Source: an uncultured Acidobacteriota bacterium (lineage in GTDB: Bacteria > Acidobacteriota > Terriglobia > Terriglobales > CAINCZ01). From it: a stretch of 64,000 bases of DNA. Under the pieces are notes generated by a model. The model made no database searches, was not told the origin of the DNA, and was given only the letters and a program-made list of their open reading frames with translations. Below, one piece after another: positions 3,303-43,195 of this stretch. The translations under genes and the position numbers were made by a program. The number at the start of each line of letters is the position of its first letter. Positions within the stretch are counted from its first letter, which is position 1. The stretch is taken from assembly GCA_903847195.1 (NCBI GenBank), contig CAINCZ010000037.1, positions 1 through 64,000 on the forward strand, in the 5' to 3' direction.

Positions 3303-4394
3303 ATGCGCAACTGGTCTCTCCCCCTGGCACGGATACGCGGCGTCGAAGTTCGGTTGCATCTGACGTTCGTGCTCCTGCTGGCCTTTGTCTGGCTCACCGA
3401 GTTGGGCTCCGCCCACGGCCCCGGCTCGCTCCGGCCTCTGGCGCTGGTCGCCATTGTTCTCGGCTCCGTCCTGCTGCACGAGATCGCGCACGCCGTGGTC
3501 GGGCACGTTACCTCCCAGCCGCACGCAATTCTGCTGTTTCCCCTCGGCGGAGTCATGCTGAGCGACGACTCGGCGCCGCTGCCCGTCGATCTCGGCCCCG
3601 AGGTGCGTGCTGCCCTGGCCGGGCCTGCCATCAACCTGCTGGCCGCCGGAGTGATCGCCGCCGGCACCTCCGCGTTTGTCCCGCAGGACCTGCTGGCCGC
3701 GCCACTCGTTTCCTCCAGCGGCCTGCTGCGCAGCGCGCTCTGGATCAACCTTTTCCTCGGCGTCGTCAACCTGCTGCCCGCCTATCCGCTGGATGGCGGA
3801 CGCATCCTGCGCCTGCACTTCCTGCGGCAGGAAGATAGCATCCGCGCCATGCGCCGCGCCATCAGCTATGGCCAGATGATCTCGACCGCGCTGATCTTCG
3901 CCGGAGTATGGCACTCCTGGCTGATGATGGCCGGTGTTTTTCTCTTCCTCGCCACGCAACTGGAAGACCGCTCGGCCGTATTCCAGGCCGTGCTGCACAA
4001 CGTCAGCATGCAGGACGTCATGCTGACCGACTTCGCCATCCTCTCGCCCGCCGATACCTTGGAAGACGCGCTGCACAAGGCCGTCCACTCGCTACAGGAC
4101 GACTTCCCGGTCATCCGCGGCAGCGACCTGGTCGGCATCATCTCACGCCGCCGCATACTGGAATCCCTGCGTACCGACGGCAACAGCTACGTGCAGACCG
4201 CCATGGACCAGTCCTTCCACGTCGCCCAGCGCCAGGACTCGCTGGCCTCGGCCTTTCGCACCATCACCGGCCAGGGCGCCACGCTGATTCCGGTCACCGA
4301 CGGCGAACATCTGGTGGGCATCGTGACTCTGCAAAACCTGATGCACTCGATGTCGCTGCTGGCGGAGACGCGCAAGTTGAAGCGCGGACAGTAG
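3303..4394 (+). CDS. Site-2 protease (M50) membrane metalloprotease with CBS domain pair
   Basis: This 363-residue integral membrane zinc protease is of the S2P/SpoIVFB type. The zinc-binding HEIAH is at residues 59-63 in a hydrophobic helix, and the second zinc-ligand motif NLLPAYPLDGG is at about 157-166 (D164). About four to six membrane segments occupy residues 15-230. The C-terminal part, about 235-355, contains two CBS repeats, which in this family bind adenine nucleotides and control access to the active site. The ATG at 3303 was chosen because MRNWSLPLARIRGVEVRLH is the usual start of rhomboid-neighbour M50 proteins; an upstream TTG at 3252 adds an atypical leader. Substrate unknown. 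It faces the repeat-rich gap to its right. Confidence 0.9.
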   Translation: MRNWSLPLARIRGVEVRLHLTFVLLLAFVWLTELGSAHGPGSLRPLALVAIVLGSVLLHEIAHAVVGHVTSQPHAILLFPLGGVMLSDDSAPLPVDLGPEVRAALAGPAINLLAAGVIAAGTSAFVPQDLLAAPLVSSSGLLRSALWINLFLGVVNLLPAYPLDGGRILRLHFLRQEDSIRAMRRAISYGQMISTALIFAGVWHSWLMMAGVFLFLATQLEDRSAVFQAVLHNVSMQDVMLTDFAILSPADTLEDALHKAVHSLQDDFPVIRGSDLVGIISRRRILESLRTDGNSYVQTAMDQSFHVAQRQDSLASAFRTITGQGATLIPVTDGEHLVGIVTLQNLMHSMSLLAETRKLKRGQ

Positions 4395-40391: not shown

Positions 40392-41096
40392 CTAACCTCT
40401 TCCCGAGACAAACAGATTTCCTGCCACCACGAAGCGTAGCGGGTGGTCGATCGCCTTGCTGATGCCGATGCGCGGCGTGACCGTGATCTCGCCCGGCACG
40501 AAGCCGTCGTCCACGATCACCAGGTCGGAGGCCGGATCAGAGAAATCTTTGTCGTTGTCGCGCGGGCGCGTAACCCCGAAGGCCTGCGCCATCCGCCCCG
40601 GTCCACTGGTAAGCAGGCGGCGCACGCGGTCGCTGGCGCTGGGGTAATCCATTCCTCGCGCCAGCGACATCCACTCCTCCCCGGCCACCGGCTCGACCGC
40701 GCGAAAAAGGACCGCCCCGGCCTCGCCTTCGGGAAGCGTCGATACGTTCAGGCACCAGTGATTGCCGTAGGAAAAATAGACATAGGCGCGCCCTGGCGGT
40801 CCGAACATGACGCCATTGCGCGCCGTGCGCCCTGCCGCAGAGTGCGCCGCCGGATCACCGTGTCCGAGATAGGCCTCGGTCTCGACGATGCGCCCGGCTA
40901 TCACCCGTTCACCGTCGCGCCGCAGGAGAATTTTTCCCAGCAGCGCCGGCGCCACCCGGCTCGGATCAGCGAAATAGAATTCGCGCGGCAAGGGCGCGAG
41001 CGCAAGCAGACGGGCAGGCGGAAAGGCGACCATGGGGCCTGTTGCGGCCACGCATTGCTTCGGTGTCCGGCGGCGCGAGTTCAGGGTCTTTGTCAT
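40392..41096 (-). CDS. 3-methyladenine DNA glycosylase (AAG/MPG family)
   Basis: This 234-residue protein (start at 41096 assumed; 41033 is also possible) removes alkylated purines in base excision repair. FYFADPSRVAPALLGKIL, then IVETEAYLGHGDPAAHSA with the catalytic glutamate, RNGVMFGPPGRAYVYFSYG with the base-flipping region, and LLTSGPGRMAQAFGV are all family blocks. It lies 61 bp downstream of the bcp gene on the same strand, so repair and peroxide defence may share a transcript. Confidence 0.9.
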   Translation of the reverse strand: MTKTLNSRRRTPKQCVAATGPMVAFPPARLLALAPLPREFYFADPSRVAPALLGKILLRRDGERVIAGRIVETEAYLGHGDPAAHSAAGRTARNGVMFGPPGRAYVYFSYGNHWCLNVSTLPEGEAGAVLFRAVEPVAGEEWMSLARGMDYPSASDRVRRLLTSGPGRMAQAFGVTRPRDNDKDFSDPASDLVIVDDGFVPGEITVTPRIGISKAIDHPLRFVVAGNLFVSGRG

Positions 41097-41157
41097 GGGA
41101 AGAAGAAAATCCGGCTGGAGCGCCGTGGCGCTCCAGCCATGAATTGCCAAGCAGGCG

Positions 41158-41628
41158 TCAGCCCGCTGCTGGAGCTTCCTTGAGCGCGGCCAGTACCTCC
41201 TCGGCGTGCCCGTCGGCTTTCACCTTGGAGAAGATGCGCGCGATCTTGCCTGCCGGGTCGATTACAAACGTGGTGCGCTCGATGCCGAGTTTCTTCACCC
41301 CGTACATGTTCTTCTCTTTCAGGACGTCGTAGGCTTTACATACTTCGCGGTCTACATCGGCCAGCAGGGTGAAAGGCAGGTCGTACTTCTCTTTGAACTT
41401 CTTCTGCTTCTCAGGAGTATCGGCCGAAACGCCCAGCACCAGGGCGCCGGCGGACTGGATACGGCGGTATGCGTCGCGGAACCCGCACGCTTCCAGCGTT
41501 CAACCGGGGGTGTCGGCCTTGGGGAAGAAATACAGGACGACGTGCTTGCCCTGGAGTGATTTAAGGCTCACGTTTTTGCCGTTCTCGTCAGGAAGATTAA
41601 AATCAGGTGCGCGGTCGTTGAGGTTCAT
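41158..41628 (-). CDS. bcp: Selenocysteine-containing peroxiredoxin, BCP/PrxQ type (in-frame TGA at catalytic residue)
   Basis: Translated from ATG at 41628 with TGA at 41502-41500 read as selenocysteine (U), the 156-residue product is a complete BCP/PrxQ. It starts MNLNDRAPDFNLPDENGKNV, the active site is FFPKADTPGUTLEACGFRD, and it ends LAALKEAPAAG. In this family the residue after TPG is the peroxidatic cysteine that attacks peroxides; here it is U43, with the resolving cysteine C48 five residues on, as in E. coli BCP (C45/C50). AAGGAGG lies 8 nt before the ATG. The frame is intact on both sides of the TGA, and a SECIS-like stem-loop follows it. A simple nonsense mutation of TGC or TGT, or a read error, is the alternative, but would have to hit exactly this codon. 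A plain gene call gives only the last 93 residues from 41439. Confidence 0.85.
41471..41502 (-). promoter_or_regulatory. SECIS-like element directly after the bcp TGA
   Basis: On the minus strand, after TGA (41502-41500), the arm GCGUGCGG (41490-41483) pairs with CCGC-G-ACGC (41479-41471, one bulged G) around the loop GUU (41482-41480). There are 17 nt between the TGA and the loop. Known bacterial SECIS elements lie right after UGA, with an apical loop about 16-37 nt away that carries G near its start; this fits. Sequence of the stem also encodes protein, as usual. Confidence 0.7.
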
Positions 41629-41668
41629 CGTGCCGGCCTCCTTTTAAGCCGCTGGAAAATTGACTGCC

Positions 41669-43195
41669 ATGAAGATTGCCCCGACTGCTCGAAATCGCTG
41701 GTTGAAACTCGCTGCCTTCGTCTGCCTCGTTGCCGTCGGCGCCCCGGCGCTGCGCGCGCAGGGTCGGCAGCTGCCGTCCACGCCCGCCGCCGCCAGCGGC
41801 CCGCGCGCCCTTGCGTTGCTGGAACTGGCTCCCGACGGACGCGCGCGGCTGGTGCCCATCGCCATCCGCATCAACAACAAATTCTACGACGCGGGACTCT
41901 ATCGTGCGAGGCCGCGTCCCATGGCCGTCGATCCGCAGACGGTGTACGAAGTGCAGCGCAGCGGCGAACCAGCCGGACTGTTCACCGTCACCCGCGCACT
42001 GACGACCAAAGATGTGTGGATCGGGCTGGGACAGTGGCGTCCCGGAAAGCCCGAAGCAGCCGCAAAAAAAATCACACCGGCCCCGCGCATCCAGGCTGGA
42101 CCGCCCGATGTGGGCGAGCGTCCCGTGCTGAAGCGGCCCGCGGGTTCGGCAAGCCAGTCTTCACCGGCTGACTCTGCCGAGCCGAAACCTGCGGCAAAGC
42201 CAACCGCAGTTGATGAGGATCGCGACCGACCCACGCTGAAGCGCCCGGGAAGCTCCAGCGCGGAGGCTGACGATTCGCGGCCGACTATGAGGCGGCCCGC
42301 GCCACCGGACTCCACGGCTGCGGCAGACGACGATGCCCGGCCCGCACTGAAACGTCCCGCCGGCCAACCCGCGCCCGCCGAAGATGCTGACCCGGATCGC
42401 CCTGCGCTCAAGCGCCCCGCGCGGGAGGAGCGGCAATCCGCTTCCCGCACCGATAGCGACTCGGAACGCCCGACGCTGCGCCGCGGCAAGCCGGCCACGC
42501 AGCTGACCACGGACGAAACCGCGCCCGCCATCACCAACCAGCCGGGGGCGTCTCCGGTGCTGGCCGTGTCCACCGCCAGCGCAGGTGCGGCCACGGGAGG
42601 CATGAAGCTTGAAGTTCTGCCCGCCATCTCCGATGCGAAAGTGCAGGAGTCGCGCTCGTTCCTCATGATGCTGAACCCCATCGAGCGGCAGCAGTTGGAG
42701 GGCAAAGTCCAGGCCGTGGCCTATGCCGCCGTGCAGAAGTGGGCGTCCACGCGCCCGGTGGCCCGCCCTGCCGCCGCCGGGCAGTTGCAGGTCAGCAACT
42801 TTCAGGTCTTCAACTACAACAACGATCCGGTGGCTGTCTTTTCGGCTGAACTGCCTGGTGCGGCTGCGGCTCCACCTATCCGCCGCACCGCAGGAGCCTC
42901 AGCCGCAACGGCGTCAGCGGCAGCCGTCGATCCCAGCTTCCGCTTCTTTGTAACCGTGGTGGTTCGCCGCGACATGTACGGCGAGCTGCGCACACTGCTC
43001 ACCCAGGTGACCGACCACCGCCACCTCGACGCCTACGCGCGCTTCGAGCTGATCGATGCCGTCGACGGCGAGGGCTCGCGCACGGCGCAACTACTCTTCC
43101 GCCGCGTCGGCGACCGCAGCTTCAGCTACGCGCTCTACCGCGTCGCCATGGACCGCTGCTGGCCGATCTTTGAGAGTGCGGGCAAGGACCTGTAA
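41669..43195 (+). CDS. Secreted protein with repeated RPxLKRP motif
   Basis: In this 508-residue protein a signal peptide (about 1-31, LKLAAFVCLVAVGAPALRA) precedes a beta-rich domain (about 45-125). A linker (about 140-280) has six spaced copies of a RPxLKRP-type motif (ERPVLKRP, DRPTLKRP, SRPTMRRP, ARPALKRP, DRPALKRP, ERPTLRRG) between acidic alanine/proline-rich spacers. The C-terminal domain (about 310-508) has FFVTVVVRRDMYGELRTLL. Spaced short basic motifs in a flexible linker often bind a partner repeatedly, but no partner is known. It is divergent from bcp with a 40-bp gap. Confidence 0.7.
   Translation: MKIAPTARNRWLKLAAFVCLVAVGAPALRAQGRQLPSTPAAASGPRALALLELAPDGRARLVPIAIRINNKFYDAGLYRARPRPMAVDPQTVYEVQRSGEPAGLFTVTRALTTKDVWIGLGQWRPGKPEAAAKKITPAPRIQAGPPDVGERPVLKRPAGSASQSSPADSAEPKPAAKPTAVDEDRDRPTLKRPGSSSAEADDSRPTMRRPAPPDSTAAADDDARPALKRPAGQPAPAEDADPDRPALKRPAREERQSASRTDSDSERPTLRRGKPATQLTTDETAPAITNQPGASPVLAVSTASAGAATGGMKLEVLPAISDAKVQESRSFLMMLNPIERQQLEGKVQAVAYAAVQKWASTRPVARPAAAGQLQVSNFQVFNYNNDPVAVFSAELPGAAAAPPIRRTAGASAATASAAAVDPSFRFFVTVVVRRDMYGELRTLLTQVTDHRHLDAYARFELIDAVDGEGSRTAQLLFRRVGDRSFSYALYRVAMDRCWPIFESAGKDL

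Follow-up and report, generated by a model that had tools for sequence, protein, structure and literature searches.

A Bcp/PrxQ peroxiredoxin gene from Acidobacteriota with a predicted selenocysteine codon at its peroxidatic site, and the resolving cysteine among its relatives

Known selenocysteine-containing peroxiredoxins and the acidobacterial locus

PrxU of Eubacterium acidaminophilum is a peroxiredoxin with selenocysteine (Sec) at its peroxidatic site, and COG1225, a group that recurs below, is one that we take to be the Bcp class of these enzymes. Surveys have placed Sec-containing peroxiredoxins on a wider footing: the Sargasso Sea survey of 2005 gives 43 such sequences, assigned to COG1225 and carrying a TxxU site (PMC1088965), the GOS survey 253 peroxiredoxins with TxxU (PMC2398784), and a 2016 survey 91 Sec-peroxiredoxins in 78 organisms (PMC5029168). 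A review from 2026 keeps Prx (TxxU) as one family, and a term search of it gives no BCP, PrxQ or Acidobacteri (PMC13188914). For Acidobacteria, four selenoproteins in three families (PMC1794560) and, in Occallatibacter riparius, three selenoprotein genes (PMC12013277) are on record. Both Sec in peroxiredoxins and selenoproteins in Acidobacteria are already known.

The gene described here lies at 41158..41628 on the minus strand of the window, the whole 64-kb stretch of DNA that was analysed, which its relatives mark as likely acidobacterial. Its frame runs from an ATG at 41628 to a TGA stop at 41160-41158 and is open apart from an inner TGA at 41502-41500, which, counted as one residue, makes a protein of 156 residues. 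This inner TGA (41500..41502, minus strand) is the codon of the peroxidatic cysteine, residue 43, and is predicted to encode Sec; translated with readthrough, its surroundings are PKADTPG-U-TLEACGFRD. The locus thus has TGA at the TPGC position of Bcp/PrxQ and a likely resolving cysteine five residues on (TPG-U-TLEAC), namely C48, whose TGC codon lies at 41485..41487 (minus strand). With C written for U, the readthrough protein scores 155.7 bits against NCBIfam NF006960, thioredoxin-dependent thiol peroxidase (cut-off 140), and 147.6 bits against PF00578, and AAGGAGG, a likely ribosome-binding site read directly from the sequence (41637..41643, minus strand), stands 8 nt ahead of the ATG. The ORF list for the locus holds only a 93-residue fragment with a GTG start (41158-41439), which lacks the active site. 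The initial annotation had described this frame with its single interruption, the BCP/PrxQ character of the flanking residues, the AAGGAGG and the 93-residue product of a standard gene call, and on all these points its description is borne out.

Of 21 database homologues aligned with the protein, 20 have Cys in the TGA column and one, P0011, has Arg. The gene has an in-frame UGA at a redox-active cysteine position with Cys homologues, the pattern by which bacterial selenoproteins are recognised. The Arg of P0011, a near relative, may stem from a genuine substitution, a sequencing error or a mutation of the TGA. Because the TGA is common to 41 other homologues, the hairpin behind it covaries, sel genes co-occur with it and the sequence is under purifying selection, we are highly confident that the gene encodes a selenocysteine-containing Bcp/PrxQ peroxiredoxin, which the initial annotation had put forward as probable.

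Compared with the described systems, the window protein stands close to the Cys-containing Bcp/PrxQ enzymes of NF006960, with which it shares up to 75% identity and among which the solved structures 5enu, 5iiz and 3gkk are its relatives by sequence; it differs from them in that they have a peroxidatic Cys codon where the window has a TGA followed by a hairpin. With the Sargasso Sea proteins it shares COG1225 and the TxxU site, although those are marine metagenome fragments, and a term search of that survey gave neither Acidobacteria nor a statement on a resolving cysteine (PMC1088965). PrxU, offered by the initial annotation as precedent, is alike in function and belongs to another subfamily: the window protein is of the Bcp type and reaches only 42.8 bits against NF040737 (cut-off 270), for which reason PrxU membership was rejected, as was the Prx-SUH thiol peroxidase family (NF045827; 37.3 bits, cut-off 298). 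The further suggestion that Sec at this site is little described for the lineage holds in part: no report of a Sec-containing Bcp in Acidobacteriota, or of a loss of its resolving cysteine, was found in the open-access literature, but Sec in COG1225 was listed as early as 2005 (PMC1088965).

The TGA codon and the predicted hairpin across relatives

In a scan of a collection with one genome per species, the best 80 of 569 relatives, most of them from loci titled Acidobacteria or a group within, have TGC (65), TGT (5) or TGA (10) at this codon. The window protein has a match in 258 of 396 Acidobacteriota genomes searched, and 32 of the 396 contain a 30-base motif that has this TGA as its end, as against none for the backward pattern used as a control. 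These figures agree with the earlier argument that a chance stop would seldom hit this codon. An enlarged set was then formed from the collection loci, the protein and motif matches in the 396 genomes and fetched regions; after removal of rows identical over 120 nt from the codon (192 to 175) and of one peroxiredoxin of another type (L099; 175 to 174), it comprises 42 distinct TGA copies, the window and 41 others, and 132 TGC/TGT copies, with no other codon among the 174, a ratio that is no frequency because some of the TGA copies entered the set through a search for TGA itself. The alignment of relatives at this codon, proposed as a check on the initial reading, thereby returned both TGA and Cys forms. 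In the phylum of G022, a genome whose related locus (L020) is titled Nitrospirae, a version of the TGA motif relaxed at one codon was found in none of 198 genomes.

Bacterial SECIS elements present their apical loop about 16-37 nt behind the UGA, with a G at the start of the loop. The hairpin predicted in the window, GCGUGCGG-GUU-CCGC-G-ACGC (41471..41490, minus strand; nt 12-31, with the T of the TGA as 0), conforms to this rule, its GUU loop (41482-41480) lying 17 nt behind the TGA and its 5' arm containing the codon of C48. A stem of seven pairs with a GU loop, under a rule that permits two registers of the outer stem, is formed by 33 of the 42 TGA copies, the remaining nine failing it, and by none of the 132 Cys copies, four of which can pair as the stem but lack the GU loop. 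In the inner four pairs, 94.6% of the cells are paired compared with 84.6% in shuffles, none of 500 shuffles being as high; 15 cells are changed on both sides, and slid controls reach at most 61.3%. The eight-pair stem of 21 window-type copies follows a like trend (89.3% against 84.4% in shuffles). The codon choice at residue 49 agrees with the hairpin as well, the first 20 TGA copies having GGG (16) or GAG (4), whereas 93 Cys copies most often have GGC (49).

A covariance model built from 21 TGA copies, with the window left out, gives 55.4 bits (E 4e-9) to the site in the window and 15.8 bits to the second-best match. As it also gives 16-43 bits to Cys copies, and 55.7 to one of them (L010), the model in part carries a plain homology signal. 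Rfam yielded no match in the window, nor under permissive settings on 401 bases. Folding of the 53 nt from the TGA by themselves gives an ordinary z-score (-1.61; 12 of 200 shuffles do as well) and favours another structure; in a shorter stretch the hairpin stem is present in the best fold.

A well-supported branch of 19 Bcp paralogues (L146-L154, L162-L169, L177, L178) has TGA only and uses the second register of the hairpin, with an outer stem without bulge; several of these genomes also have a Cys copy elsewhere.

The genes flanking the window locus recur around its relatives. The downstream neighbour (40392..41150, minus strand; an ORF of 252 aa), named from its sequence a putative 3-methyladenine DNA glycosylase/Aag, has a homologue in the sequence fetched around 11 of 20 related loci (9 TGA, 2 Cys), and the divergent upstream neighbour (41660..43195, plus strand; an ORF of 511 aa) in 16 of the 20 (13 TGA, 3 Cys). 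These shared neighbours suggest that, in the nearest relatives of the window, either a TGA or a Cys form occupies what is apparently one chromosomal place. On the tree, nine changes of the TGA/Cys label are needed, six of them forced by well-supported branches. The Cys copy L010 (TGC; 4127-4172) is sister to the TGA copy L012 and retains GCGTGCGGGTTCCGCGAC, most of the Sec-type hairpin; this looks like a relic hairpin and probably means that one of the two forms, Sec or Cys, gave way to the other recently.

The resolving cysteine in TGA and Cys copies

For the window enzyme we infer a mechanism in which the predicted SECIS hairpin that follows the UGA would bring in SelB carrying Sec-tRNA(Sec), and the ribosome would put in selenocysteine at the peroxidatic position where it would otherwise stop. 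The enzyme would then reduce peroxides via Sec43, and the resulting selenenic acid would be resolved by C48 to a selenylsulfide, with recycling probably by thioredoxin, as in the family at large. In relatives without C48, an outside thiol would have to reduce the selenenic acid directly, in a 1-Sec mechanism.

Such relatives are numerous. While 22 of the 42 TGA copies, the window included, have kept C48, it is replaced in 20 (by Ser in 12, Arg in 3, Lys in 2, and His, Asn and Thr in one each), compared with none of the 132 Cys copies (Fisher 6e-15, kinship ignored), so that, across all 174 copies, absence of the resolving cysteine is confined to the TGA side. No cysteine at all is left in 11 TGA copies, or in 10 if L175, whose frame is short, is excluded. 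In our judgement the scales are evenly balanced on the proposal that Sec43 frees PrxQ from C48, according to which a 2-Cys to 1-Sec shift would have occurred repeatedly in Acidobacteriota, leaving some lineages without any Cys, the Cys forms would keep C48, and the window gene, with Sec and C48 together, would represent the preceding stage.

We lean against, but take seriously, the possibility that C48 was replaced for reasons unconnected with Sec chemistry, whether through drift or as a by-product of constraint on the RNA, codon 48 being part of the hairpin's 5' arm. Of the nine TGA copies that do not fit the stem rule, eight indeed belong to the 20 without C48. An RNA constraint would have little reason to remove the cysteine, however, as TGC at codon 48 suits the stem and is accompanied by CGC at codon 51 in all 22 TGA copies that retain C48, and TCC (Ser) is offset by CGG at codon 51, which restores the pair, in 7 of 12; a hairpin with which TGC fits and TCC is compensated does not expel C48. 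A kinship-aware test offers only four independent pairs on well-supported branches, too few for significance (median p 0.25); on average, residue 48 sides with the TGA in 3.1 of these pairs and opposes it in 0. Against an origin unconnected with Sec stand at least nine changes at residue 48 within the TGA rows, counted on a quick tree with residues 43 and 48 masked, set beside the unbroken retention of C48 in the Cys copies.

The database proteins add a further qualification in favour of such an origin. The 120 nearest have Cys at both 43 and 48 in 107 cases, Trp43 in nine (with C in 4, R in 3 and S in 2 at residue 48), Arg43 in one and no motif in one; the other two, P0116 and P0121, combine Cys43 with Gln or Arg at 48. 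These two are either true Cys forms without a resolving cysteine or Sec proteins written with Cys, and unless the latter applies they speak against a strict C48 rule. If Sec is confirmed, these TGA and Cys forms would amount to a natural experiment on the effect of selenium in peroxiredoxin chemistry, one that can be tested with natural enzyme pairs.

Selenium machinery, selection and other readings of the TGA

Genomes with a TGA copy have selA in 19 of 19 cases, and selB and selD in 18 of 19 each, 16 of the 18 selD genes containing a TGA of their own. A tRNA-Sec above 60 bits is present in 8 of 10 and in 26 of 31 TGA-copy genomes (9 of the 31 are also among the 19). The line was drawn in the empty score range from 61 down to 53 bits, since the family cut-off is passed by 38 of 50 genomes, many of them through weaker matches under 53 bits that we take for other tRNAs. 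In 7 of 41 TGA-copy genomes no clear tRNA-Sec was found, in G009 no full-length selB and selD, and in G391, which has the TGA motif and a tRNA-Sec, no selA; many of these genomes are MAGs, in which gaps in the sel genes are to be expected. The 40 genomes with a Cys copy as best locus have selA in 14, selB in 13, selD in 14 and tRNA-Sec in 14 cases, and a further 26 genomes of this kind have selB in 8. Across the Acidobacteriota genomes, selA is found in 31 of the 32 with the TGA motif versus 221 of the 364 others, as counted by eye from tables (Fisher 9e-6).

The Sec trait itself is far wider in the phylum than one selenoprotein, selA being present in 252 of the 396 sampled genomes.

For the host genome of the window, we infer the Sec machinery from these relatives. 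The Pgi-like protein of the window has matches in 3 of 31 genomes, the best of which, G315 (71%), carries a TGA copy (L104) together with selA, selD and tRNA-Sec; its match to selB extends over positions 1-354 of 581. Within the 64-kb window, no tRNA genes were found; tblastn with the longest frame per sel locus of the relatives (frames that may be wrong) gave nothing below E 0.03, and 58 frames of at least 180 aa from seven of their selA, selB and selD loci gave no match at E 0.01.

Decoding of the UGA as an amino acid other than Sec, either as Cys by a UGA-reading tRNA-Cys or as Trp under code 4, is a reading to which we attach hardly any credence. UGA-reading tRNA-Cys, with U73, has been described for some bacteria of other phyla (PMC7609411); Trp, for its part, stands at position 43 in the nine database proteins mentioned above, all from JGI. 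The relatives, however, have a tRNA-Sec with the anticodon TCA (12 of 12 loci scanned) and G before CCA (G73; 7 of 7 printed sequences) as opposed to the U73 of tRNA-Cys, which argues for Sec and against a UGA-reading tRNA-Cys, and they possess selA and selD. Code 4 is countered by the 21 of 55 window ORFs, picked by a composition rule, that end in TGA, and the JGI entries more likely reflect automatic translation by this code. Cys and Trp were accordingly rejected, and Sec remains our reading of the codon.

Purifying selection acts on the part of the gene that follows the TGA, with dN/dS below 0.31 in 11 of 11 pairs (dN 0.08-0.32, dS 0.48-1.88) and values of dN and dS much like those of the part before the TGA. 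A nonsense mutation, gene decay or a one-base sequencing error, to which the single base between TGA and TGC or TGT would lend itself, is therefore extremely improbable and was rejected, given this selection and the otherwise intact frame together with the TGA at the same codon in 41 other distinct copies and the hairpin absent from the Cys copies.

With Sec as the residue encoded, standard annotation either shortens the enzyme, to the 93-residue fragment, or mistranslates it, with Trp at the catalytic position. The nine JGI proteins with Trp at the Bcp catalytic position (P0017, P0023, P0029, P0039, P0066, P0072, P0089, P0100 and P0106) are probably cases of a TGA translated by code 4, and thus hidden selenoproteins in public annotation. 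The peroxiredoxin of another type set aside above (L099), which has the motif TPVC, lies at most 1.5 kb from the tRNA-Sec gene in a genome with a TGA copy.
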